IMG/VR virus record: IMGVR_UViG_3300009605_000123
Span: 1-25,839 of that record
Length of the DNA stretch: 25,839 nt
DNA from: a virus
Direction: 5' to 3' (one strand)
Part shown: positions 6,509 to 20,768 of the stretch, in pieces
Layout: each line of letters begins with the position of its first letter
Numbering within the stretch: position 1 is the stretch's first letter
Notes under the pieces: model-generated
Seen by the model: the letters and a program-made list of their open reading frames with translations, nothing else
What the model was told of the DNA's origin: nothing
Database searches by the model: none
Made by a program: the position numbers and the translations under genes

Positions 6509-8776
6509 TTAAGCCGCTACATCCACCCATTCAGGACTTTGCGTTGTTGATATCTCTGTCCAGTTAGGAGTCTGCGTAGTTGCAATAGTAGTATAGTTTG
6601 GATTTTGTGCAGTATCAATAACAGACCAAGCATCTATTTTTATAGATCCAACCTGAGAAGTCGCAGAAACAGAAGGTAAAGTAATACCAGTTGTTACATT
6701 TACAGTAACTGTTCCAATAGATCCAGTAGCAGATACAGATGGTGAAGTTACATCGATCAACCCGGTTGCAGTAACAGTTCCTATTGCTCCCGTTCCTGAA
6801 ACAGAAGGAGGAACAACAAGGGATGTACCCGTAATAGTCAAAGATCCTACAGATCCTGAACCCTGAACAGAAGGTGGAGTAACTATTATCAATGTTGATA
6901 CAGTAACTGTATTTACCGACCCTGTTCCTGAAACAGAAGGTGGAGTAACTATATCTCCGGAAACTACAGCAACACTTCCTATACCACCTGTTCCGGAAAC
7001 AGATGCAGTAGTCAGAAAAGATCCGGTTGTTATAGATACAGAACCTATAGATCCTGTAGAAGAAACCCCTGAGACAGGAGCTAAAGTTCCCGTATTTATA
7101 GATACAGAGCCTATGCTTCCTGTAGAAGAAACAGAGGACGGGACAATAGACTGACCAGTTTGAATCGAAACAGATCCAATTGAACCTGAACCCGATACAG
7201 ATGGCGGGACAATACTTGAACCACCTATTATTGATAAAGAACCTGCTGATGCAGTAGATGATACAGAAGGAGACAGTACATTAGCTCCCCCTTTGACATT
7301 ATTGACTACAGATCCAACAGCAGTAATAGATACTGTAGAAGGAAGAACAAAATCACCCGCATTTCCTGAAACACTTACAGGTATAGATTCAGGAGTATTT
7401 GCCTGACCTCCCATTGCAGGGTGGTTACTACAGTAGTAATAAAGAGTAGGCGCACCTGTAGCAACAGTAATTTGCGTATATGCACCTGAAGAACCTGCAC
7501 TTCCTGAAGTGGTTACACCCGTAGTATATTCAGATCCACCACTATGCGTCCCATCAGAAGTTGTCGAGAAACGTAAAGGGTGCGTACCATTAGTAGAGTC
7601 ACTTTGATCAAATCTGTATGTGTTGCCTTCTACTAAAGATAAAGTATCTTGTTGAACCCCATCAATAAAGTACTTATTGCCTGATCCTGTACTAACTACA
7701 GTAACAATCTTTATTTGAATAGCACTAGAACTTTGAGCAATAAATCCTGAAGCAGAAACAGATGGCAGAGTTACAGCCATAAAAGCATCTACAGTTACAG
7801 ATCCTACTGCACCTGTTCCTGAAACACTTAGTAATGTAACAGGTGCAGAACCTGAAACAGAAACAGAACCAACACCACCAGTAGAAGAAACACCCGATAA
7901 TGTTGTATTAGAAAAACCTGTTACAGATACAGAGCCTATAGACCCCGTCCCTGAAACAGATGGAGCAATAACTACAGTTGCAGAAGATGCCGTTGCATTA
8001 CCAATAGCACCTGTTGCAGACACAGAAGGTAAAGTTACCCCATCATCTATCTGAACAGATACAGAACCCACTGCACCTGTACCTGAAACAGATGATACTG
8101 TTAAAGCAGATGAACCAACAGCAGAAACAGTAGTAACCCCTCCTGTTCCTGAGACAGATGCAGTAGTTAAAGTTGATGATGCCGATATAGAAACAGTAGT
8201 AATACCACCAGTACCGGATACAGATGGAGTAGTTATAGAGGAAGTACCAACTATAGAAACTGTTGTTATCCCACCTGTAGCAGATACAGATGGGACGAGT
8301 GCTTCTGCATTTCCTGCACTACTTAAATCACCTACTCTTCCTGTACCTGCAACAGATGGAGTAGTGAGAAGAGAAGATCCTGAAATAGAAGAGCTTGAAC
8401 TAACTGATCCGGTAGCAGATACAGAAGATGGAACAACACCAACCCCCGCAAATACAGTAACAGTATTAACTCCACCAGTACCTGATACAGATGGAGGTAC
8501 TACAATTTGACTTGCAGAAGCAGTAACTGTAGTAACACCACCTGTACCGGATACAGATGGAGATGTAATATTAGAGGTACCTGTTACAGATACAGAACCT
8601 ATAGATCCCGTAGCAGATACGGATGGAGGTACAGTGTTTTGGCCTACAGCTACTGAAACAGTTCCAGTAGCCGCAGACATTGCGGTTGGGGTGGCAGTAT
8701 CCCTGTTCCAAGCGGCAGTATTCCAACCACGATTGGAATTATTCCACCCTTGAAAAACTACATTAGCATCTGCCAC
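6509..8776 (-). CDS. 22-aa-repeat tail protein with cupredoxin-like domain
   Basis: A 755-aa protein starting at GTG with AAGGG about 9 nt upstream. Residues 1-48 are Trp/Asn-rich (FQGWNNSNRGWNTAAWN). Residues 49-357 hold 14 units of 22 aa of the type VPPSVSGTGSIGSVSVTGTS, and residues 501-720 hold ten more. Between them, about 358-475, lies a different domain: YFIDGVQQDTLSLVEGNTYRF, then THPLRF, EYTTGVT and LYYYCSNHPAMGGQ. His399, Cys449, His452 and Met455 are in the order of type 1 copper ligands of cupredoxins. The last 35 residues have three short NPNYTT/TPNWTE/SPEWVD repeats. Its place between tail adaptor and fibre genes suggests a virion appendage. Copper binding is inferred. Confidence 0.8.
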   Translation of the reverse strand: MADANVVFQGWNNSNRGWNTAAWNRDTATPTAMSAATGTVSVAVGQNTVPPSVSATGSIGSVSVTGTSNITSPSVSGTGGVTTVTASASQIVVPPSVSGTGGVNTVTVFAGVGVVPSSVSATGSVSSSSSISGSSLLTTPSVAGTGRVGDLSSAGNAEALVPSVSATGGITTVSIVGTSSITTPSVSGTGGITTVSISASSTLTTASVSGTGGVTTVSAVGSSALTVSSVSGTGAVGSVSVQIDDGVTLPSVSATGAIGNATASSATVVIAPSVSGTGSIGSVSVTGFSNTTLSGVSSTGGVGSVSVSGSAPVTLLSVSGTGAVGSVTVDAFMAVTLPSVSASGFIAQSSSAIQIKIVTVVSTGSGNKYFIDGVQQDTLSLVEGNTYRFDQSDSTNGTHPLRFSTTSDGTHSGGSEYTTGVTTSGSAGSSGAYTQITVATGAPTLYYYCSNHPAMGGQANTPESIPVSVSGNAGDFVLPSTVSITAVGSVVNNVKGGANVLSPSVSSTASAGSLSIIGGSSIVPPSVSGSGSIGSVSIQTGQSIVPSSVSSTGSIGSVSINTGTLAPVSGVSSTGSIGSVSITTGSFLTTASVSGTGGIGSVAVVSGDIVTPPSVSGTGSVNTVTVSTLIIVTPPSVQGSGSVGSLTITGTSLVVPPSVSGTGAIGTVTATGLIDVTSPSVSATGSIGTVTVNVTTGITLPSVSATSQVGSIKIDAWSVIDTAQNPNYTTIATTQTPNWTEISTTQSPEWVDVAA
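6617..7276 (-). repeat. tandem array of ten 66-bp coding repeats
   Basis: Ten consecutive units of exactly 22 residues (residues 501-720 of the 755-aa protein). The period is unbroken. Degenerate half-units at about residues 476-500 join this array to the cupredoxin-like domain. Confidence 0.8.
7706..8632 (-). repeat. tandem array of about 14 66-bp coding repeats
   Basis: In-frame tandem units of 66 bp (one of 69 bp) encode 22-residue copies of the pattern PSVSGTGxxGxVSV within the 755-aa protein. Units have diverged in DNA but keep period and glycine/valine positions, consistent with stacked beta strands. The array stops at the cupredoxin-like domain. Confidence 0.8.
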
Positions 8777-9553: not shown

Positions 9554-10328
9554 TCTTTAATTCCTTTTTATGTATATGCATAGATTTTTCACTGTAATTT
9601 CTATCAAATAGCTGAGGTTTTATAGAGGTAACATCAGCAGGTTCAGGCAGTTCAGCTTTTGATTTTTTTGTAACAACATATTCATTGTCATCCTTGGGCA
9701 CACAAATATAAGGATCATCAAGCCTATGATACCCATAAAGTTTTTCTGTAGGGGGAACATTATTATCAAGTAAAGTAGAATTAGGGCAAACCTCTATTTT
9801 AATCCCTTTTGTAACAGCAATGGAAAGCCAAAATTCACAACATCCTCTCCCTGACTCAGCCATAGAAGGAAGATTAGCGTATGTATAATCTATTCCGTAA
9901 AGAGATATAGAAGATACTTTTTTATAAATTGCATATGCTATTGCATAAGGAACCGTATTATTTAAGTAACTTATCTTAAATTCAGATAAGACTTCTTCTA
10001 TAGGATACTCTTGTATAGAAGGGACACGACTATCTAGCTCACATGAATATATTGGATTTTTTTGTTCTTTATCAAGAAGAAACTTTCTTGCAAGAATTGT
10101 CTGCGTTCCTGCATTTTCAGTATCCAAATACCTTGAAGCAGGATCAAGCATAAAAGTTCTATCAACTTTTATGATTCCACCAATAGAATTGATACCCCAA
10201 ACTTCATCAAAACTTTCACCCGCAACACTTTCAACAAGATAATCAGACAAAGACCTGCCCATAGCAAGAATTGCAATCCTGCTATTCAATAATTTTTCAT
10301 GTTTATTTTTGTGTTGTTTAGATTTCAT
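9543..10328 (-). CDS. DUF115/MptE- or GT42-like Rossmann protein (tentative)
   Basis: A 261-aa protein. Residues 18-30 (IAILAMGRSLSDY) resemble the nucleotide-binding G-x-S-L loop of DUF115/MptE-like proteins and sialyltransferase-like GT42 enzymes. This is followed by DEVWGINSIGG and RTFMLDPASRYLD, the usual position of a DxxxxxDP strand. Later, SISLYGIDYTYAN resembles the I-x-L-x-G-x-D strand of the same families, followed by AESGRGCCEFWLSIAVTKGI. The C-terminal 60 residues are polar and may be a tail. A sugar or nucleotide-sugar role is inferred, with moderate doubt. The start forms an ATGA overlap with the adaptor gene upstream. Confidence 0.6.
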   Translation of the reverse strand: MKSKQHKNKHEKLLNSRIAILAMGRSLSDYLVESVAGESFDEVWGINSIGGIIKVDRTFMLDPASRYLDTENAGTQTILARKFLLDKEQKNPIYSCELDSRVPSIQEYPIEEVLSEFKISYLNNTVPYAIAYAIYKKVSSISLYGIDYTYANLPSMAESGRGCCEFWLSIAVTKGIKIEVCPNSTLLDNNVPPTEKLYGYHRLDDPYICVPKDDNEYVVTKKSKAELPEPADVTSIKPQLFDRNYSEKSMHIHKKELKNVG

Positions 10329-11179
10329 AGTATAGCTTGTACCCTGCTTTCCCCATTACGATAAGAATCCATTCTGTTTTTTCCAATACCAAGATCAAAT
10401 AACTGCTTTAATGCTTCATCATATCTTTTTTGATAAAGATTCATTATATCTGCTTCACCCTTCATAAAAGTATAAGACTCTATTAAGGAACCGTAAAGCA
10501 AGACAGTAGTTGCATTTTTACTAAACCAACTTTCCGTTGTGTCTGAGGTAATTGATTTAAAAACAGCAGTTGCACCACTTGAAGATCCGGTTAGTGTTTC
10601 ATCCAAAGTAAATGAAGAAAATATTGCACCCACTGTCAATGTAGTTGCATTGGGAAATGTTTTAACAATAGCAGTATTTCCACTAACAGAACCTGTAATT
10701 GTCTCACCTGCTGTAAAGGTTCCACTAGAACTAGCTACAGTTATAGTTTGTGAACTCTCAGTAATACTAACAGGATCATAGTAATAATGAAGCTGAACTG
10801 AGTATTCTGCTGAAGGCAAAGGAGCAATAATAAATGTCGTATCATCAAACAACCCATAATACTTGGGCACACCTGATGTACTTAAAGATGAATATGCTTC
10901 ACGCATAAAACTAACATCTTTATGCAGAAGAAACTGATAGTCATTGCTTCCATCAACAACAGCCATTGAAAAAACAGCAAGAAAATCAGAGGGAGTATTT
11001 AAAAAACGATTACTCTGACTTATTGTTCCTGTGACATTTTTCCTTAAATCAGGAACAGAAACAGATCTGTTTATTCGTTCCTCTGCCTGTTTTATAAACG
11101 TAGATATTTGATTCAGGAATGTGGTTTCCTGATTCTGCGTATAATCTATGATTGCTTGTCTAAGCTCTGTATAAGTCAT
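10325..11179 (-). CDS. head-to-tail adaptor-like protein with inserted beta repeats
   Basis: A 284-aa protein. Its N-terminus (TYTELRQAIIDYTQNQETTF, then LNQISTFIKQAEERINRSVS) and the mid region (FLNTPSDFLAVFSMAVVDGS, MREAYSSLSTSGVPKYYGLF) match the SU10-type adaptor family as I know it. The C-terminus (LLYGSLIESYTFMKGEADIM, then LYQKRYDEALKQL) is the conserved helical end. Between them, about residues 146-212, two related segments (GTFTAGETITGSVSGNTAIV and FTLDETLTGSSSGATAVF) look like an inserted duplicated beta module that many relatives lack or vary. The role would be joining the portal to the tail of a short-tailed virion. Confidence 0.75.
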   Translation of the reverse strand: MTYTELRQAIIDYTQNQETTFLNQISTFIKQAEERINRSVSVPDLRKNVTGTISQSNRFLNTPSDFLAVFSMAVVDGSNDYQFLLHKDVSFMREAYSSLSTSGVPKYYGLFDDTTFIIAPLPSAEYSVQLHYYYDPVSITESSQTITVASSSGTFTAGETITGSVSGNTAIVKTFPNATTLTVGAIFSSFTLDETLTGSSSGATAVFKSITSDTTESWFSKNATTVLLYGSLIESYTFMKGEADIMNLYQKRYDEALKQLFDLGIGKNRMDSYRNGESRVQAIL

Positions 11180-11181
11180 AA

Positions 11182-11619
11182 TTAAATTATTTTAGTGTTT
11201 TTCTTTTTAGAGACAATACCTGATCCACCACTTAGAACCATGCCACCTGAATTTTTTCTTTCTACATATAATGTATTAGGATCTAAATCTTCTTTGTTTA
11301 TCACTCTTCTAGCTTTTGAAGGTTGTTGAAGATTGCTTTTTTCTTTTTCTTTTTTTGTAGCAGGTCTTGTAATAGGCCCAACACTAAGAAATTTTCTTTT
11401 TGATATCGGGACATCAGGATTTCTTTTATCTTTAATTTTCCCAACATCCATAGCCTTTCTTTTTTTTCTAACAAGAGAGTTATGCTCTCTTATTTCTTTT
11501 GGTGATACTCCCGGTATCTGACCTGAACCCCCAAGAAGACTTCCAGTATCAACATTATGGATAAAATCCATAGATTTTTTAGTAAGACTTTTTTTCTTTT
11601 TGTTATCTTCTTTAGACAT
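11182..11619 (-). CDS. lysine-rich basic protein 1
   Basis: A 145-aa, strongly basic protein (MSKEDNKKKKSLTKKS, LVRKKRKAMDVGKIKDKR, ATKKEKEKS). It has a Gly-rich C-terminal segment (SGGMVLSGGSGIVSKKK). No known domain is recognised. It is one of five Lys-rich small proteins within the structural genes and could be a packaged DNA-binding or internal virion protein; this is inference. A clear AGGAG Shine-Dalgarno lies 7 nt before the ATG. Copy 2 of the intergenic palindrome lies just upstream of that. Confidence 0.7.
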   Translation of the reverse strand: MSKEDNKKKKSLTKKSMDFIHNVDTGSLLGGSGQIPGVSPKEIREHNSLVRKKRKAMDVGKIKDKRNPDVPISKRKFLSVGPITRPATKKEKEKSNLQQPSKARRVINKEDLDPNTLYVERKNSGGMVLSGGSGIVSKKKNTKII

Positions 11620-11633
11620 ATCAAACTCCTATT

Positions 11634-11651
11634 AAAATACTTAGGTATTTT
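11634..11651. repeat. intergenic palindrome, copy 2
   Basis: AAAATACTTAGGTATTTT, symmetric except for the centre, fills the 31-nt gap between the 225-aa protein and basic protein 1. It begins at the upstream stop codon and ends about 14 nt before the start codon, just above the Shine-Dalgarno. Confidence 0.75.
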
Positions 11652-12328
11652 TAGTCTTGCCCATCATTAGCATACAGGTTGTCGAATATTTGTGAAGTAT
11701 CCATAGTATAATCTAAATCAGATTTTGAGTAATGCACATAATGAGAAGGCTTAAAATCAGGGGCACCTTCTCCACACTCAAACCAAGCAGGATGAGTTAC
11801 CCTGACCCGGTTATTAGGAAGAGCCACAATATTACATTGCCACTCACAGTCTTCAAGAATCTCAAGGACATGACTTTGCTTATGTTGAGCAGGGTCATCT
11901 GCTATTTCAGATTCAGTATAGTCAACTGTAAATAAATATCTTGCAGGATAAAAGTTACCGCCTATCTTAGCAAGCCAAGGGGCAGGAGTAGCCCTGTCCA
12001 TTTGATAAACACTTACAGTACTTGATGGACAATCCCAAGGCTGTGCATGATGTACAGGCATCACTTCAGGAACTTCATCCCACTCAAGAGAGTCACCAAT
12101 CAATGCAGTGATTGGCATCCTTGCCCACATAGCACCGCCATGCACATTTTGATCACCTTCATCAAGACCTGTAAATATCATCTGAAAACCTAAACACCTT
12201 CCCGGTATTGCAGTAACACCAATTGCCATAGCATGAAGGACTTCACCATGATATCGCTCATGATTACAGGTGAACTCCCTTCTAACCCAACACTTAAAAT
12301 GCGGGATATTACTATAAAGAAATGACAA
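11651..12328 (-). CDS. conserved phage protein, unknown function (TTG start)
   Basis: About 225 aa starting MSFLYSNIPHFKCWVRREFT. I place the start at a TTG (12326-12328), one base after the upstream stop, because AGGA lies 12 nt before it and related proteins, as I recall them, begin at this SNIP motif. The longer open frame to 12382 would overlap the previous gene by 53 nt. Features: HGEVLHAMAIGVTAIPGRCL, WARMPITALI, PVHHAQPWDCPSSTVSVYQM, and NNRVRVTHPAWF. This order is familiar from marine phage structural clusters. Cys and His occur in several places but no clear metal-binding set. Function is unknown; a structural role is likely from location. Confidence 0.7.
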   Translation of the reverse strand: MSFLYSNIPHFKCWVRREFTCNHERYHGEVLHAMAIGVTAIPGRCLGFQMIFTGLDEGDQNVHGGAMWARMPITALIGDSLEWDEVPEVMPVHHAQPWDCPSSTVSVYQMDRATPAPWLAKIGGNFYPARYLFTVDYTESEIADDPAQHKQSHVLEILEDCEWQCNIVALPNNRVRVTHPAWFECGEGAPDFKPSHYVHYSKSDLDYTMDTSQIFDNLYANDGQD

Positions 12329-12329
12329 A

Positions 12330-13382
12330 TTATCCGTTCTTCCTAAAATACTGAGTTCTAGCGGCCCCACTGCCTCTAGCAACTGTAGCTCCTTTAGGTC
12401 TTTTGTTAACAGACATACCTGTCTTTTTCTTCATGACACCGCCTTTAGCATAACCTTTAGACTTCATCATCCCGCCTTTGGCATAACCCTTAGACTTCAT
12501 CATGCCGCCTTTCATCATCTTTCCAACACCATCCATAGCATAAGTAGGGATCATCTTACCTGTCTTAGGATCTTTACTCATTGGTCTTTTGCCTGATGCC
12601 ATTTTTTTAACAGCAGTTTTACCACCTTTTGAATAGCCTTTAGTCTTCATCTTTCCACCCTTAGCCATTCCTTTAGTTTTTATTTTTCCACCTTTAGCCA
12701 TTCTCTTAGACTTCATCATGCCACCACCCTTAGCACCAAAAACTCTGTTAAATTCATCAAGTAAAGCCTGTTCTTCCATTTCTGTAACTGCTTTTGCTCT
12801 TCCTGTGCCTCCTGTAAATGGATCTCCTGATCTCATCATTTTTAAGTATTTACGATTGTTGTAATCATCAGGGACAGAAGAAAAGTCAGCACCTATTTCA
12901 GTAGCTTTTATTTTAGGGCGAAAATTCTTTACCGATGTTGACCTACCCCCTCTAGTAGACTCAGTAAATTTTCTGCCCTGACTATCTGTTCCTTTATATG
13001 TTTTTCCTGTTGTCTCACCCTTTCTACTTGCAGATGCAATTTTGCTCACTTTTTCTGCTTTAGCAGTATCAGGGTTTCTATATTTTACTTTTCCTTTTGC
13101 TGTAGAAGTTGGGTTACTAATAACTTTTCTTTTTGTTGGTTTTATTCCTTTTCCTGATGCACCAAACTTATCAGCAGAAGAAGTTGTGGATTTTTTTACC
13201 ACAGGTTTCTTTGTTACGGTTTTCTTTGTTACCGACTTCTTTGCTACGGGTTTTTTAGTAGCAGGAGAATCTTTTTTAATATAAGTTTTTCCTTCAAAAG
13301 TGACTAACTTTTGTCCTGATTTAAAAGATCCACCAAAAGGTTTATAATCTCTTTTAATTATTTCCTTTGTCATTTTTGCCAT
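12330..13382 (-). CDS. lysine/glycine-repeat basic protein 2
   Basis: A 350-aa basic protein. Residues about 35-67 hold histone-H1-like repeats of KKPVAKKSVTKKTVTKK type. The middle is polar, with GKTYKGTDSQGRKFTEST. From about residue 219 it is made of repeats of the form MAKGGKIKTKG or MMKSKGYAKGG, at least six copies. It ends ARGSGAARTQYFRKNG. Such K-G-G repeats are frequent in marine phages but lack a known function. DNA binding or phase-separating behaviour inside the capsid is possible, by composition only. A GAGGAG Shine-Dalgarno precedes the ATG. Confidence 0.75.
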   Translation of the reverse strand: MAKMTKEIIKRDYKPFGGSFKSGQKLVTFEGKTYIKKDSPATKKPVAKKSVTKKTVTKKPVVKKSTTSSADKFGASGKGIKPTKRKVISNPTSTAKGKVKYRNPDTAKAEKVSKIASASRKGETTGKTYKGTDSQGRKFTESTRGGRSTSVKNFRPKIKATEIGADFSSVPDDYNNRKYLKMMRSGDPFTGGTGRAKAVTEMEEQALLDEFNRVFGAKGGGMMKSKRMAKGGKIKTKGMAKGGKMKTKGYSKGGKTAVKKMASGKRPMSKDPKTGKMIPTYAMDGVGKMMKGGMMKSKGYAKGGMMKSKGYAKGGVMKKKTGMSVNKRPKGATVARGSGAARTQYFRKNG

Positions 13383-13396
13383 AACAAACTCCTCAG

Positions 13397-13726
13397 TTAA
13401 ACTGTTACTGTAACTTCACCAATATGACCGACTGCCGCCTCAACACACCTCTGAGGATTTAATGTTTCTTCATTCAACAGAGGCCATTGAATAAAAGCAC
13501 CCTCTATAAAATGGTCGGGACGAGGATCGAACAAACTTTGGGGATCAGATATGTTGACACGACCAAGGAAATTTTGAGGCTGATCAGGATCGAAAACATC
13601 ACGACCAACCCGCATACCAGTACGAACCCCATCTCTGACTTCATATACAAGATCCTTCAAAGGATATCGAAAGCCTGTCCTGTCACAAAACCCAAACGCA
13701 TATTTAGCTCTTGCATATACCTGCAT
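13397..13726 (-). CDS. small protein with eroded zinc-ribbon-like N-terminus
   Basis: A 109-aa protein. Residues 8-24 (KYAFGFCDRTGFRYPLK) and DQPQNFLGRV near 49-58 recall a marine phage family in which CxxC pairs form a zinc ribbon (CDRCGFRY and later VCxxC). Here only one Cys of the first pair remains, and the second pair reads RVGRDVFDP. Metal binding is therefore unlikely in this copy. The last residues (AAVGHIGEVTVTV) resemble one unit of the 22-aa tail repeat. It follows the gp4-like gene directly, sharing bases between stop and start. Function unknown; virion component inferred from context. Confidence 0.7.
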   Translation of the reverse strand: MQVYARAKYAFGFCDRTGFRYPLKDLVYEVRDGVRTGMRVGRDVFDPDQPQNFLGRVNISDPQSLFDPRPDHFIEGAFIQWPLLNEETLNPQRCVEAAVGHIGEVTVTV

Positions 13727-14406
13727 TAATAAACTCCAAAACCCATCATAGGAACAAACCTTGAAGATGACCTGTCTCTGTCTTCTTGAGCGGCAAGTGC
13801 ATATTGAAACTCATACTCTGCCTTTAAAGGTGCAACTCTTTCAGATGCTTCAGGTTTCTTCATAGCAACATAATACGCAAGACCTGCAACAAGACAAGGA
13901 ACAAAACGAGAAGGGATTTGAGCATCACCTGATATTCCGGAACTTAGACCATCAACTCCCGCAAGATAAAAATAAGATATTTTATATGTTTCAGTAGAAT
14001 CAGGAACAGGGTAAAGAGTAAATGTAGTACTAGACTTTAATCGTTGGATAAAAGCCTGAGTTGGCCTTCCCTGTTGATTCTTATTACTTTTTTGAGAATA
14101 AGTAGATACAGATATTCTCTGTATATTGTTATCTACCTGATCCGTTCCTGTTCCTGTACGCAATGACATCTCAATAACATCAATCATACTTGTATCAGTA
14201 AATGTATAAGATGCAGTTCCTGCGGTAAGTGTCTGCTCGGCATTAGTTACAGTCCAAAGGTTTAAACCACGGTTTTGCCACTCAAGGGTGATAAAATTTA
14301 AACTTCTTCTGATTGTCTTCAAGTCATAACCGGAACGCAGTTCAAGACCTGCTCTTTCATAAGCATCTTCAAATATTTCAGCTAAATCAGGTGTAACTAC
14401 TGCCAT
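13726..14406 (-). CDS. P22 gp4-like head-completion/adaptor protein
   Basis: A 226-aa protein. Its N-terminal region (LAEIFEDAYERAGLELRSGY, LNFITLEWQNRGLNLWTV) is the helical pattern of short-tailed phage adaptors of gp4 or tail-tubular type. A middle beta region (ASYTFTDTSMIDVIEMSLR, FTLYPVPDSTETYKISYFYL) and a helical C-terminal part (PSRFVPCLVAGLAYYVAMKK) complete it. The end is FVPMMGFGVY. It probably binds under the portal after packaging, sealing the head. The cluster also has a second adaptor-like protein at 10325-11179, so the two may occupy successive rings. The family call is from pattern memory, not a profile search. Confidence 0.75.
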   Translation of the reverse strand: MAVVTPDLAEIFEDAYERAGLELRSGYDLKTIRRSLNFITLEWQNRGLNLWTVTNAEQTLTAGTASYTFTDTSMIDVIEMSLRTGTGTDQVDNNIQRISVSTYSQKSNKNQQGRPTQAFIQRLKSSTTFTLYPVPDSTETYKISYFYLAGVDGLSSGISGDAQIPSRFVPCLVAGLAYYVAMKKPEASERVAPLKAEYEFQYALAAQEDRDRSSSRFVPMMGFGVY

Positions 14407-14408
14407 GT

Positions 14409-14717
14409 TTATGCCTTTTGTGTATTACGATAAGATCGTGTTTTTTTAGCTATTTTTCTTGGTTGACTAGAGAATTGTTGGCCCTTAGCTGTATCTTTTC
14501 TTTTCTTAGCAGTAGTAGCGGCATATTCTTCTTTACTCAGTGCCGCAATTGCTTTTTTAGGTAAGTACCGCTCTCCTGTTTTTGCACTTGGCTCACCTGA
14601 TTTTGTTTGCCATTTTTGATCACCCCAATTTTTCAAAGACTTTTGGGATGGCTTCAATGTCGATCCACCGGATTTCTTTTTTACAACAGATTTAGTTTTC
14701 GTTTTTTTTAGAGGCAT
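14409..14717 (-). CDS. lysine-rich basic protein 3 (KTGERYLPKKA type)
   Basis: A 102-aa basic protein. Its N-terminal third is Lys/Ser-rich. Residues about 28-75 (LKNWGDQKWQTKSGEPSAKT, GERYLPKKAIAALSKEEYAA) are a conserved block found in many marine phages and, as I recall, related to DUF5872. The C-terminus is again Lys/Arg-rich (PRKIAKKTRSYRNTQKA). Function is unknown. The conserved block together with charge suggests nucleic-acid contact, but this is inference. Its start shares a base with the stop of the preceding gene, and the 226-aa adaptor gene follows 2 nt later. Confidence 0.75.
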   Translation of the reverse strand: MPLKKTKTKSVVKKKSGGSTLKPSQKSLKNWGDQKWQTKSGEPSAKTGERYLPKKAIAALSKEEYAATTAKKRKDTAKGQQFSSQPRKIAKKTRSYRNTQKA

Positions 14718-15085
14718 TAAGATGTATAGCCTCCACCTGCTTCTTTATATTTCTTAGCAAGTATCTGTGCTTTTCTTGCGCTCCACTGACCCGGATTGCC
14801 ACCACTTGAACCTGCCTTTACTTGATTAAATAAACGCTTACGCAATGTTGGCTTCGTATAATTTCCTGCTTCATTTACTCTAGACTTAACTTTTTTTCCT
14901 TCTTTCATTTTTAAAGTACTACTCAGTTTTTTAGCTTGTGAAGCATGGGTTTTTGATGCTTTCTCAAGCCCTGAGATAACCTTTTTGACAGTCTTTACAT
15001 TCTTGTTTTTTGATGTAGCAGACTGTTTTTTCGATGAACGAGCAGGGTTTTTTATTTCCTTTCCCATGTTTGATCTTGAAATCAT
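14717..15085 (-). CDS. lysine-rich basic protein 4 (NPGQWSARKAQ type)
   Basis: A 122-aa basic protein. The first 70 residues are Lys/Ser-rich and low-complexity. The last 50 form a conserved block (VNEAGNYTKPTLRKRLFNQV, then GGNPGQWSARKAQILAKKYK, ending GGGYTS) that I recognise as very widespread in marine phages. I choose the ATG at 15083-15085 rather than the one 18 nt later (MGKEIK) because a complete GGAGGTGA Shine-Dalgarno lies 9 nt upstream and the codon overlaps the previous stop as ATGA. Function unknown. Being next to basic protein 3 suggests a working pair. Confidence 0.75.
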   Translation of the reverse strand: MISRSNMGKEIKNPARSSKKQSATSKNKNVKTVKKVISGLEKASKTHASQAKKLSSTLKMKEGKKVKSRVNEAGNYTKPTLRKRLFNQVKAGSSGGNPGQWSARKAQILAKKYKEAGGGYTS

Positions 15086-16029
15086 AAAGTTTCATCACCT
15101 CCAAAAATAACATTGCTATCTCCCTGAGTTGATATTGGATTTGCAGGAACAACTCCAAAACTCGGCCCTCCAAATATTCCTGTTCCGGGTTCTCTGTCTG
15201 AAGTAATTTGAGTATCTGCCATTAATTGTTGTATAGCATCATTAAAACTACTATCAAAACTTGATGTCCCATAAGTTGGAATATTATCAAGAAAACCTAC
15301 TAGGTCATCTTGAGAAATAGATCCTTCACCTACACCTAATGTACTTCCCGGCACAAAGTTATAATTCGTTTCCAAAGGCTGAAGACGGGTCGTTCCAAAA
15401 CGAGTGTCCATATTCAAAGGACTTACAATATCTTCCAATGAAGTATCATCATCTTGCACAGATCCTTTGAAGGTTGCAAACTGAGGAGAAAATGTTTTAT
15501 CAGGAAGCCTATAAGAAAGAGATCCTGAAATATCTTGGACAGCACTCGGATTAGAAGCAACATAATCCATCATTTGATCAAACTCATTATTGTCTGTGCC
15601 ACCCGGATCACCACGACCCGAATAGATGTCATATTTAAGTGCATCCCTGTAAGCATCTCGCATTTCAGGGCCAAAGGCAGTTTCAAAAGAATTGGAAACA
15701 ACCCGACCATCTCCAAAAGTTGCTCCTATAAGATTTCCTCTCTCTAAAGGATGATCATAAAATGAATAAATTGGAGTAGCACCACTTCTAACAGCTTCGT
15801 TTACATCTTCTTGAGTATGAACATTATCCATGATTGCTTCAATTGCATTAGGAAGAATACTTATGTCTTCAAAAAAATCAGCAAATCCTTCCCCAATAGA
15901 TTGAAAATCAGAATTAATTTCAGAAAAAGAGTTACTTTTATTTGAGGATTCATTGTCTTCAGGGACATCTCTTGATGTGAAAGTTGTACCTGAAGGAAAT
16001 GTAGAAGGTATATCAAAACCATTAGCCAT
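15082..16029 (-). CDS. acidic protein of unknown function
   Basis: A 315-aa acidic, Asp/Ser-rich protein with no Cys and no membrane segment. It begins MANGFDIPSTFPSGTTF. Landmarks: FQSIGEGFADFFEDISILPN (about 42-61), IYSFYDHPLERGNLIGATFG, then DALKYDIYSGRGDPGGTDNN, and a Gly-rich C-terminal end GIFGGPSFGVVPANPI. I do not recognise the family. It sits among basic small proteins, so charge pairing within the particle is possible but speculative. It could be an internal virion or scaffold-associated protein. The gene ends in an ATGA overlap with basic protein 4. Confidence 0.7.
   Translation of the reverse strand: MANGFDIPSTFPSGTTFTSRDVPEDNESSNKSNSFSEINSDFQSIGEGFADFFEDISILPNAIEAIMDNVHTQEDVNEAVRSGATPIYSFYDHPLERGNLIGATFGDGRVVSNSFETAFGPEMRDAYRDALKYDIYSGRGDPGGTDNNEFDQMMDYVASNPSAVQDISGSLSYRLPDKTFSPQFATFKGSVQDDDTSLEDIVSPLNMDTRFGTTRLQPLETNYNFVPGSTLGVGEGSISQDDLVGFLDNIPTYGTSSFDSSFNDAIQQLMADTQITSDREPGTGIFGGPSFGVVPANPISTQGDSNVIFGGDETL
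15095..15102 (-). promoter_or_regulatory. full-length Shine-Dalgarno inside upstream gene
   Basis: GGAGGTGA, complementary to the 16S rRNA 3' end over all eight bases, lies inside the last codons of the 315-aa gene and 9 nt before the ATG at 15085. It decides the start of basic protein 4. Confidence 0.7.
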
Positions 16030-16034
16030 TTATA

Positions 16035-16319
16035 TCACCACGCCTTACAAGACCAATATCTTGCTGAGAATTTATCTTTGGCAGAAGCACATTTATGTCG
16101 GGCACGAAAACTACTTCGGTTTTTAGGTTGATCTTTTTTAATAGACATATTGGGATCACCGAAACGCACTATCTTGATCTCACTTCCTTTCTTTGCCAAG
16201 ACTGCACTCTTCTTAGCTTTGCCGGGAGTTCTCTTCGGCTTGTTAAAACCCGAAAAGGTTTCTCCCCGGTAGCTTATTCTTCCTGAAGGAAGCCTTTTGA
16301 CATCTTTAGTCGTAGCCAT
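16035..16319 (-). CDS. small basic protein with ARYWSC motif (basic protein 5)
   Basis: A 94-aa basic protein. Residues about 24-35 (GFNKPKRTPGKA) and the C-terminal 27 residues (SSFRARHKCASAKDKFSARY then WSCKAW) form a strongly conserved pattern seen in very many phages, especially marine ones. The two Cys and nearby His (HKC, WSC) could bind a metal. The role is not known. Small size, charge and conservation next to capsid genes fit a head-associated DNA-contact protein, by inference. The ATG directly follows the previous gene, with a 2-nt gap. Confidence 0.8.
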   Translation of the reverse strand: MATTKDVKRLPSGRISYRGETFSGFNKPKRTPGKAKKSAVLAKKGSEIKIVRFGDPNMSIKKDQPKNRSSFRARHKCASAKDKFSARYWSCKAW

Positions 16320-17373: not shown

Positions 17374-18285
17374 CTATGGAGTTCCGGCAGTTCCATAGAT
17401 CCCAAGAGGATCTGAAACACCAAAACTATAACGCTCTCTTGCTTTGTAACGTACATTTCCGGTATCAAAATCACCATCCATGCTTGTTGACATTGGAGTA
17501 CGCTCAAAATGTTTCATACCATTAGGCACATCAGTAATGATGAAGAATGAGTCACTATCAGTTAAATAGTGGTTCACTCTGTACCCTTCAGGTATAGAAC
17601 CGTTGTTGCGTATCGCATTGATATCATTATCCGCAGTTCCTGTTCTCAGTTCAGAGTCAAGCAACCTTGTCGCTATGAACATAGAAGCAGGTGGGACAAT
17701 CAATCTACGAGGTCGAGCCGCTATCAGAAGACCCCTTTCATCTGTAAAAGCCGCAATATCAATTACTGCTTGTTCTAGAGAGGTTTCATTCAAGTCAGCC
17801 GCAGTTGCCAAAGTATTAGAATTTACACCACCCTGAACAGTTGGATGACTTGTATTAAACAAGCTAACACCATCACCACTGTTATAAGTTGTAAATCCAA
17901 AGTTTAGAGGAACAACCGCTTTTGTCTGCTTGGTATAAGCCATTGCTCTTGCAAGAGCCTTGGTATATCTAGCTGACAAAGAATCATAAAGATTATCCTC
18001 CATAGCTTCCTCTGTAATAGAGAAACCCATAGCGATAGTTTCATGATTGTAACGTGCTGTGAAACTTTCCTGTGCCCTGTCATAAGAAATAGCCGCACCC
18101 TCTGTTTTCACAGGAGCCGCACCAAATCCGGAAAGTTTTACTTCCTCTTCAAATGAACGATCAGAAGTTTCTGTTTCATAGATTTCTTCATGTTCATCTT
18201 CATACTTAGCATATTCTAAACCAAAAAGAGCATTCAGACCGGGCAATAACTCTTTAAGGAGTTGTGAACGAGAAATAGTAGCCAT
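17374..18285 (-). CDS. major capsid protein, gpT-like HK97 fold
   Basis: A 303-aa protein with the pattern of Mu gpT-like major head subunits. Landmarks: LLPGLNALFGLEYAKYEDEH (13-32), then the SDRSFEEEVKLSGFG strand, EGAAISYDRAQESFTARYNH (62-81) corresponding to the spine region, TIAMGFSITEEAMEDNLYDS, LFNTSHPTVQGGVNSNTLAT (about 141-160), IAARPRRLIVPPASMFIATR, and the end VRYKARERYSFGVSDPLGIY. It forms the icosahedral shell around the portal. Length fits the family. A strong terminator follows it, as expected for a protein needed at high copy number. A GGAG Shine-Dalgarno precedes the ATG. Confidence 0.9.
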   Translation of the reverse strand: MATISRSQLLKELLPGLNALFGLEYAKYEDEHEEIYETETSDRSFEEEVKLSGFGAAPVKTEGAAISYDRAQESFTARYNHETIAMGFSITEEAMEDNLYDSLSARYTKALARAMAYTKQTKAVVPLNFGFTTYNSGDGVSLFNTSHPTVQGGVNSNTLATAADLNETSLEQAVIDIAAFTDERGLLIAARPRRLIVPPASMFIATRLLDSELRTGTADNDINAIRNNGSIPEGYRVNHYLTDSDSFFIITDVPNGMKHFERTPMSTSMDGDFDTGNVRYKARERYSFGVSDPLGIYGTAGTP

Positions 18286-19439: not shown

Positions 19440-20355
19440 TATTCATTTCCTTTAGTTTTTGAGCGGCAAACTGCTGAGTAGTGATACCCAACCGTTTAGC
19501 CAATTTTACCTCTGACTGAGTTAAATTCACCTTGCGTGGATTCTTGCCTGAATTTCTTCCGGCAGGGGCAACCACGTTTCCCCTGTTTTGCACATTACCA
19601 GAATCGTAACGGTTTGGAAAAGTATTTTTTAAATCTTTATCAATTTCACTGTAATATTCATCAGATTTAGGATCATATCCTTCCGACACTAGCTTTTCAT
19701 GAAGACCAAAAACATAAGATGTCATTGGTTTGTCTTTACCAAACCAAGAATTTTTTGACGCCCAATCCTTTGCTTTAGGATCAGGTTCAGGGATATTTAC
19801 CTTGGGAACAGGTTTTTGATTAAACTCTTCGACAGGCTTTTCGGTTTCCTGTTGATTTTTCATACTATTGGATCTTGCTGTTATTTGTGCCTTAACTCCT
19901 GCAAGGGTTGCCATCTTTTCCTGAGCATCAACAATCGCATCAGAATCACCGGATTCATATGCATCCTTTAACTCTTTTTTAGTCTTTGCCATTTCAGCAT
20001 CGACTCTTGCGGCAACATGAGTATGCGACTGAACATCGCTCTGCTTGAGTCTTTTCCGGAGATCCTCTATTTCTTTGTTTTTAGTTTTTGCAAAATTAAC
20101 CGCTTCTTCCTGTAATCGGATGGCTTCTTCTTTTGCTCTTCTTTCTTCATGAAATTCGTAAGAAAGTTTTTTAATTCGACTTTGCACACGATCAGAATAA
20201 TTTCCAATCTCGTCTTCATCAGGGATATCCGGCTGAACACCTTCTGCTCTTCTAGGAATTCCTTTATCTTTTTCAGGAGTGTCATCTATAACTTCAACTT
20301 CTATTTCTTCAGAAGTATTTACTACTTCTTTGCCATCGTCTTCCTGATCGGTCAT
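19429..20355 (-). CDS. scaffold-like coiled-coil protein
   Basis: A 308-aa protein with strongly acidic N-terminal 30 residues (DQEDDGKEVVNTSEEIEVEV), a long charged helix at about 50-165 (SRIKKLSYEFHEERRAKEEA, KEIEDLRKRLKQ), a Pro-rich linker near 185-200, a KAKDWASKNSWFGKDKP segment, and a basic C-terminal end. This is the usual design of phage scaffolding proteins, whose C-terminus contacts capsid subunits and which leave the head during packaging. The NSWFG motif is common to marine phage scaffolds. It lies between portal and capsid genes. The ATG overlaps the stop of the GroES-like gene as ATGA. Confidence 0.85.
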   Translation of the reverse strand: MTDQEDDGKEVVNTSEEIEVEVIDDTPEKDKGIPRRAEGVQPDIPDEDEIGNYSDRVQSRIKKLSYEFHEERRAKEEAIRLQEEAVNFAKTKNKEIEDLRKRLKQSDVQSHTHVAARVDAEMAKTKKELKDAYESGDSDAIVDAQEKMATLAGVKAQITARSNSMKNQQETEKPVEEFNQKPVPKVNIPEPDPKAKDWASKNSWFGKDKPMTSYVFGLHEKLVSEGYDPKSDEYYSEIDKDLKNTFPNRYDSGNVQNRGNVVAPAGRNSGKNPRKVNLTQSEVKLAKRLGITTQQFAAQKLKEMNNVG

Positions 20356-20720
20356 GCTCTCTCCAATCCTGTGGGATCAGAAACAACCGCTTCAACTGTA
20401 TCATCATTGATCAGTCTAAACTCAGATCCCTGAAATTTAAAACGTGTTCCTGAATAAGAACGAAAAATAATAGTATCACCTTCTTTGCAATATGCCCCGG
20501 AAGGAAACTTATCTTCATCCATATAAGCATCCTCTCCCATTTCAAGAACATAACCAATAATACTAGCAGTTGATTCTTTTGTTCTTGTTGATTCATGGAG
20601 CATGATTCCACCAGAGGTTTTATCATCTACACCGGGACAGGCAACTAGGATTTTATAGCCTCTCGGCTGAGGGAGTTTATCGATGGTTTCATCATCGATA
20701 TCAATCTTCTTATAATGCAT
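20352..20720 (-). CDS. GroES-like co-chaperonin
   Basis: About 122 aa from the ATG at 20718-20720 (MHYKKIDIDDETIDKLPQPR); the longer TTG-started frame to 20768 has no support. The layout follows GroES: the first strand (PRGYKILVACPG), a mobile loop TSGGIMLHES with the GIML core at 38-41 that would contact GroEL, KEGDTIIFRSYSGTRFKFQG at 79-98, and FRLINDDTVEAVV at 101-113. It is longer than bacterial GroES (about 95 aa), mainly in loop regions. Placement directly before scaffold and capsid genes suggests help in folding the major capsid protein with the host GroEL, as T4 gp31 does; this is inference. Confidence 0.8.
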   Translation of the reverse strand: MHYKKIDIDDETIDKLPQPRGYKILVACPGVDDKTSGGIMLHESTRTKESTASIIGYVLEMGEDAYMDEDKFPSGAYCKEGDTIIFRSYSGTRFKFQGSEFRLINDDTVEAVVSDPTGLERA

Positions 20721-20768
20721 TGTTCTCTCGCTTACGAATGGAAGGTCGTAGTACCTTTTATAAAACAA

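Follow-up and report, generated by a model that had tools for sequence, protein, structure and literature searches.

Small basic genes downstream of the capsid gene in a marine bacterial virus: a split DUF5872-type pair and a Tlr6F homolog as a candidate nucleic-acid-binding module of the head

The window, the whole stretch of DNA analysed here, is the 25,839-base record IMGVR_UViG_3300009605_000123 of a marine bacterial virus. Five open reading frames (ORFs) for strongly basic proteins, designated A to E, lie on its minus strand between the major capsid protein gene and a virion structural protein gene, and three of them, C, D and E, look on sequence grounds like one recurrent module. The five genes are as follows:

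E, 16035..16319, minus strand: 94 residues, net charge +20; homolog of the DUF5754/Tlr6F family.
D, 14717..15085, minus strand: 122 residues, net charge +26; Lys-rich N-terminal part joined to the N-half of a DUF5872-type protein; phrog_17747.
C, 14409..14717, minus strand: 102 residues, net charge +23; C-half of a DUF5872-type protein; phrog_14910.
B, 12330..13382, minus strand: 350 residues, net charge +69; H1-like and KGG repeats, C-terminal motif RGSGAARTQYFRKNG.
A, 11182..11619, minus strand: 145 residues, net charge +21; orphan.

Net charge (K+R-D-E) amounts to 0.145 to 0.225 per residue in these proteins, and the next most basic product among the 34 listed window genes reaches +5. The cluster of five strongly basic proteins reported by a first-pass annotation, made from the letters of the window, is thus borne out, as these are the sole strongly basic genes of the 34. 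"Small", as that annotation also called them, suits four of the five and not B. The sequence blocks it had named are all present: GERYLPKKA, NPGQWSARKAQ, ARYWSC, the H1-like stretch KKPVAKKSVTKK and the KSKGYAKGG repeats. The chance of finding five of 34 genes within a run of nine or fewer is 0.0067, a figure calculated after the cluster had already been pointed out.

The genes that border or interrupt this basic island, all encoded on the same strand, are:

Major capsid protein gene, 17374..18285, minus strand: upstream border of the island, used as anchor.
Acidic protein gene, 15082..16029, minus strand: 315 residues, net charge -35; overlaps the start of D by 4 nt; outside the module.
SU10-type adaptor protein gene, 13726..14406, minus strand: follows C; PF24175 at 50.1 bits against a cut-off of 27.
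Virion structural protein gene, 10325..11179, minus strand: phrog_2941, with a weak head-closure match (phrog_460); downstream border of the island.

Comparison with relatives reveals that the island recurs across the clade while its small basic members turn over. For most scans used here, the 80 best matches were retained out of 384 to 600, in several cases at least that many, and the counts describe near relatives. From 80 contigs found via the capsid protein, 61 with less than 6.5 kb downstream were left out, and one of the 19 remaining long loci lacked a match to the 10325-11179 gene, leaving 18 relatives. In these, strongly basic ORFs make up 63 of the 192 that lie between the capsid gene and the 10325-type gene, vs 9 of the 235 elsewhere (Fisher 3.5e-16), and rotating the gene order inside each locus (2000 rotations) places a mean of 33.4 and a maximum of 55 basic ORFs in the stretch. 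These p-values are no more than a guide: ORFs were called crudely, by taking the longest ones on the capsid strand, and the loci include near copies (L021 and L025). Every one of the 18 carries at least one strongly basic ORF in the stretch and 13 carry three to five, with families varying by contig.

By alignment, D and C correspond to the two halves of one DUF5872-type protein that is a single piece in some bacteria. D aligns with residues 1-62 and C with residues 69-141 of the protein at L211:4019-4528, without overlap and with 47% identity each; L211 passes the PF19197 model (28.6 bits against a cut-off of 27.5), making the window pair homologous across both halves to a PF19197-positive protein. 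NCBIfam and Pfam look-ups of the five basic proteins taken singly returned nothing that counts, and PF19197 gave no match (E-value up to 10) to D, to C or to both joined as one chain. We call D and C split homologs and not Pfam members, because neither reaches the model alone. The start codon of C overlaps the stop codon of D by 1 nt, and the two are separate genes in the window, not a single chain.

On genome contigs, some of which are probably viral contigs within metagenome bins, C accompanies D in 78 of the best 80 loci found with a D profile, and both occupy one ORF in 45. The fused forms run D-C in 26 cases and C-D in 19, the latter all in records titled Pelagibacteraceae. Some fused cellular forms carry Lys-rich tails, and one fused protein (L236) additionally holds a Rho_N match (25.5 against a cut-off of 24.9) and a SAP match below cut-off. 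The linkage extends to viral loci: in the 19 long capsid loci, C and D are both present in 13 and both absent from six, with no locus holding one of them. Sixteen records of named phages match both (HMO-2011 counted twice); the record matching C alone, Hodr, actually encodes a fused, diverged D-C protein, and the record matching D alone, S-EIV1, has an adjoining C-like ORF, split at a different point. In L264, L276 and L296, C shares its frame with a long ORF; that of L264 touches tape-measure families, and the L264 and L276 ORFs have no Pfam match. D and C are probably one functional unit.

E belongs to a family that is repeatedly joined to a prohead protease. The window protein itself matches no family and does not reach the curated score of PF19058, and eight of 20 diverse members of the E family match PF19058 (E-value up to 1, best 4e-11). 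At 43.2 bits, L309 clears the cut-off of this model (27.4); it shares 41% identity with window E over 100 columns, so that E is homologous to a PF19058-positive protein. PF19846 (DUF6321) is touched by two of the 20 members (E-value up to 1, best 0.0041). A scan of 79 new loci yielded ten E proteins exceeding a length threshold for long extra stretches, and all ten contain Peptidase_S78_2, some together with ChaB or DUF5824. The E domain follows the protease in ICP1 gp125 and precedes it in Vibrio phage P018-4; altogether, E is joined to a prohead protease in 12 phage proteins, on either side of the protease. A further multi-domain case is a cytidylyltransferase-like protein of Melnitz-3, which combines DUF5824 and E. 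DUF5824 was also observed beside or inside E proteins at L327:2085-4276 and L338:2345-4294. Window E matches positions 100-185 of the 379-column phrog_1530, labelled "DNA methyltransferase", and further along this profile lie its matches to the protease parts of L371 and L369; because an E domain and then an S78 protease match it, phrog_1530 probably represents E plus protease, and its label looks wrong. Loci that lack D have, 3' of E, a paralog of C (L085:1836-2171 and similar) with RCLP, Cys residues and a CGAVLENRRK-like terminus. A single C-E fusion (L280), perhaps created by a lost stop codon, was set aside.

A second small basic protein, F, takes a place complementary to that of E. It ends in RRKSFCAR...RRWKC, occurs in the island of relatives as well as in HTVC023P and HTVC027P, and was not seen among the window ORFs. 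F matches the C-terminal part of several larger PHROG families of unknown role; the label DUF6321 comes from the deposited annotation of one match, and we take the F motif to be that of DUF6321, hence "DUF6321-like". Among 131 C loci with at least 2.5 kb on each side and differing C ends (loci with the same C end were dropped), E is found in 42, F in 43, neither in 46 and both in none. Shuffling within four locus sets (5000 shuffles) gives an expected overlap of 14.4 and a minimum of 6, figures that are not a strict probability since the loci are related. A weaker, single-sequence search for F returns 42 loci with E, 29 with F and again none with both (10.2 expected), and across six sets E and F never occur together in 478 loci. 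All 21 capsid-anchored loci among the 131 carry exactly one of the two. So do seven named phages with C and D, within the part read: E in HMO-2011 (20.6 of 55.3 kb) and CRP-13 (50.0 of 55.0 kb), and F in HTVC033P (50.0 of 53.1 kb), HTVC034P, Lederberg, MEP402 and Hodr. Profile comparison gives no support (probability 6%) for descent of E and F from one ancestor.

A and B stand apart from these three families. In viral contigs, a scan able to find only close relatives returned one relative of A, identical over its full length and probably the same virus; named phages gave no match. B likewise has no match in named phages, a tblastn result that is uninformative with the low-complexity filter on. 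Unfiltered tblastn places B matches, to which composition may contribute, in six of the 19 long loci: in four of them next to a homolog of the 11651 gene and at a distance from the island, in the other two at a place like that in the window. That gene, 11651-12382 in the window and labelled phrog_3704 "ferredoxin", was observed beside the B matches in L016, L021, L031 and L074, where it lies upstream of the capsid gene. B ends in RGSGAARTQYFRKNG, which agrees with a C-terminal motif ([RK]G.GAA, then F or Y) found in 42 of 43,586 ORFs and in no shuffled ones. It is common to otherwise differing, mostly basic phage proteins (L004:14851-15279, L007:11824-12177 and L030:14586-14762), and in L004, L007, L029 and L030 the ORFs bearing it lie shortly before the 10325 homolog. 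An N-terminal tag, G...F.W.GK.Y, was dropped as a link to B; the pattern occurs in eight of 29,662 ORFs and not in B. B is a KGG-repeat protein that is not tied to C, D and E, and A and B are separate basic proteins.

The acidic protein between D and E has no PHROG, Pfam or NCBIfam match of worth. A comparably acidic ORF occurs in the capsid-10325 stretch of two of the 18 relatives, so the neighbour is not conserved, and the earlier idea that it balances charge during assembly is without comparative support.

The five basic proteins had been proposed to share a purpose, such as DNA condensation linked to packaging or delivery with the genome, with co-occurrence of their families as a check. 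Co-occurrence of all five fails, because they occur independently in genomes, the outcome that the first-pass annotation itself had set against its proposal: A has one close relative, an identical copy, and B lies mostly away from the island. A shared purpose holds up for C, D and E, which form one recurrent module, D plus C plus either E or F, as judged by the fusion and co-occurrence of D and C and by the mutual exclusion of E and F.

Our best guess from sequence is that C, D and E constitute a late, head-associated, nucleic-acid-binding module. The composition of the proteins, the fusions and the co-occurrence are observed directly; nucleic-acid binding and work at the head are the most economical inference. 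D and C would contact each other and fold together into one nucleic-acid-binding unit made late in infection, and D-C with E, or with F, would act on phage DNA during packaging. E would be the part engaging the prohead, because elsewhere it is built into the prohead protease; its slot is filled by F in other phages. Overall, we favour a split DUF5872-type pair that, together with E or F, acts on DNA at the head, at a probability of roughly 0.42.

Several observations weigh against this reading. One of eight scanned fused proteins passes PF19197; four remain below its cut-off (L222, 26.4; L236, 21.9; L219, 20.7; L223, 14.4), and L203, L234 and the C-D protein L226 are unmatched. When all 80 capsid loci are scored with profiles, many of them short, 32 hold both C and D, six hold one and 42 hold neither. 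In 56 of 80 loci, the E proteins closest to that of the window are accompanied by a diverged paralog of C, in which RCLP replaces RYLP, and D is absent. Neither E nor F is present in 46 of the 131 C loci or in the part read of S-EIV1 (16.1 of 79.2 kb), and the E gene of GR7B, annotated Peptidase_S78_2, gave no Pfam match. Genomic placement varies as well, and relatives of C, D and E are often found outside the capsid-tail block: they lie upstream of the terminase gene in HMO-2011, CRP-2 (E only), CRP-13 and MEP402, whereas HTVC034P and Lederberg have theirs at the distal end of the late strand. E also has other surroundings: it stands alone beside ribonucleotide reductase (RNR) genes in Aegir, HTVC026P carries a lone copy downstream of DnaD and S-CRES1 one close to a lysozyme gene, and in a Flavobacterium phage it is flanked by NAD synthetase and primase genes.

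Structure prediction adds a further point of this kind, as a structure search found no convincing solved relative for the D-C or the E model. The fused D-C model has a predicted local distance difference test score (pLDDT) of 80 and a predicted template-modelling score (pTM) of 0.51, and the E model, composed of strands followed by two helices, reaches 83 and 0.71, respectively. A PDB sequence search with the D-C profile returned no match. In a viral-structure library, the D-C model has three matches at E-values up to 0.001, all to records without names, and a weaker one (5.4e-3) to a 1022-residue "ParB/Sulfiredoxin" phage protein over 48 columns.

A doubtful but substantial alternative is that D, C and E work inside the cell late in infection, coating or protecting phage or host nucleic acid as cellular DUF5872-type proteins may, and are not virion components. 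Fused D/C genes on large bacterial contigs surrounded by metabolic genes, which also count against the favoured reading, fit this: two C-D fusions lie amid metabolic genes on contigs of 377 and 385 kb. The reversed C-D fusion on a SAR11 contig (L228:2-5848) has genes for DUF1365, cyclopropane (CFA) synthase, DUF3833, two SDR proteins, TspO and an FAD oxidoreductase nearby; L220 carries DUF1365 and look-alikes of several other L228 neighbours, and the SDR gene, tested in L226, is present there. The L228-type neighbourhood may resemble a light or singlet-oxygen stress cluster. The HTVC034P and Lederberg copies, far from the capsid gene, point the same way, whereas the position of the basic genes between the capsid gene and the 10325-type gene in the clade of the window, together with the 12 E-protease fusions, argues for the head.

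An unlikely alternative treats the basic island as mostly a dumping ground, in which late genes under loose control of composition receive modular small families that pass through and share no common function. The turnover of families among relatives, the orphan A, the low-complexity B and the unconserved acidic neighbour agree with it, but random cargo would hardly yield the D-C linkage, fusion in two orders and an exclusion of E and F with repeated switching.

Less likely still, E and F could be no equivalents and instead characterise phage groups in which exchange for the other gene is rare, as suggested by the clustering of their labels on a capsid tree (seven changes vs 14.7 in shuffles) and by their different slots, E lying mostly directly after C and F mostly before it; against this, at least five of the at least seven label changes among the 47 loci with E or F are forced by well-supported branches, one pair of identical capsids carries different labels, and the exclusion also holds in the parts read of named phages.

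In its structural genes, the window phage is akin to HTVC023P-type pelagiphages. In the portal protein, identity is 41% to HTVC023P, 45% to HTVC027P and ~40% to the roseophages CRP-901 and CRP-902, with 77-89% of its length covered, and the gene order portal, GroES, scaffold, capsid is like that of HTVC023P. The GroES-like co-chaperonin gene lies at 20352-20768, between portal and scaffold. By eye, GSIGxVSVTV-like stretches are common to the products of 717-992, 6509-8776 and 13397-13726, forming two C-terminal tails and one long repeat array. Two look-alike product pairs near the tail-fibre end, 2900-3199/4377-4673 and 3738-4373/4678-5298, also judged by eye, appear as if duplicated.

Tlr6F/DUF5754, DUF5872 and DUF6321-like proteins all occur widely in phages; Tlr6F/DUF5754 and DUF5872 are found in giant viruses as well, and DUF5872 in bacteria. 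These three families are tied to each other and to head maturation by the fusions of E to the protease, by the split DUF5872-type pair and by the exclusion of E and F. A bolder proposal, to which we assign a low probability, is that E (Tlr6F) and F are interchangeable head-entry modules in phages and perhaps in giant and polinton-like viruses. When fused, E would carry the protease into the prohead; when made as a protein of its own, E (or F) would bring in a partner, here D-C, that coats the DNA or is delivered with it. If true, this would be the first function for Tlr6F, described in 2015 as widespread but unexplained.

Among known systems, nucleoid proteins with H1-like tails resemble B and the N-terminus of D in composition, a low-complexity likeness. 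DUF5872 (PF19197) is the closest counterpart of D and C, which align with its two halves; the window encodes them as separate overlapping genes, whereas on genome contigs a single chain is frequent among the relatives, in SAR11 with the order reversed. Relevant passages of the Tlr6F literature describe the family as conserved in polinton-like viruses, virophages, giant viruses and some phages, with its function not known (PMC4642659; PMC12220804), and those on one algal giant virus list DUF5754 and DUF5872 proteins together (PMC12085832). The passages at hand on DUF5872, DUF5754, DUF6321 and Tlr6F give no function and no link to a prohead protease, and no proteome of a close relative appears in the part of the literature listings looked through. 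Window E is homologous to DUF5754/Tlr6F but differs by a RARHKC...YWSC Cys/His pattern. The DUF6321-like F of HTVC023P and other marine phages is, like E, a small basic protein of the same late island, complementary to E and without significant similarity to it. Prohead proteases with an N- or C-terminal E domain (Peptidase_S78_2; ICP1 gp125; probably phrog_9979 and phrog_1530) have that domain in common with the window, where E, unlike in the E-Peptidase_S78_2 proteins, stands alone in a gene of its own.

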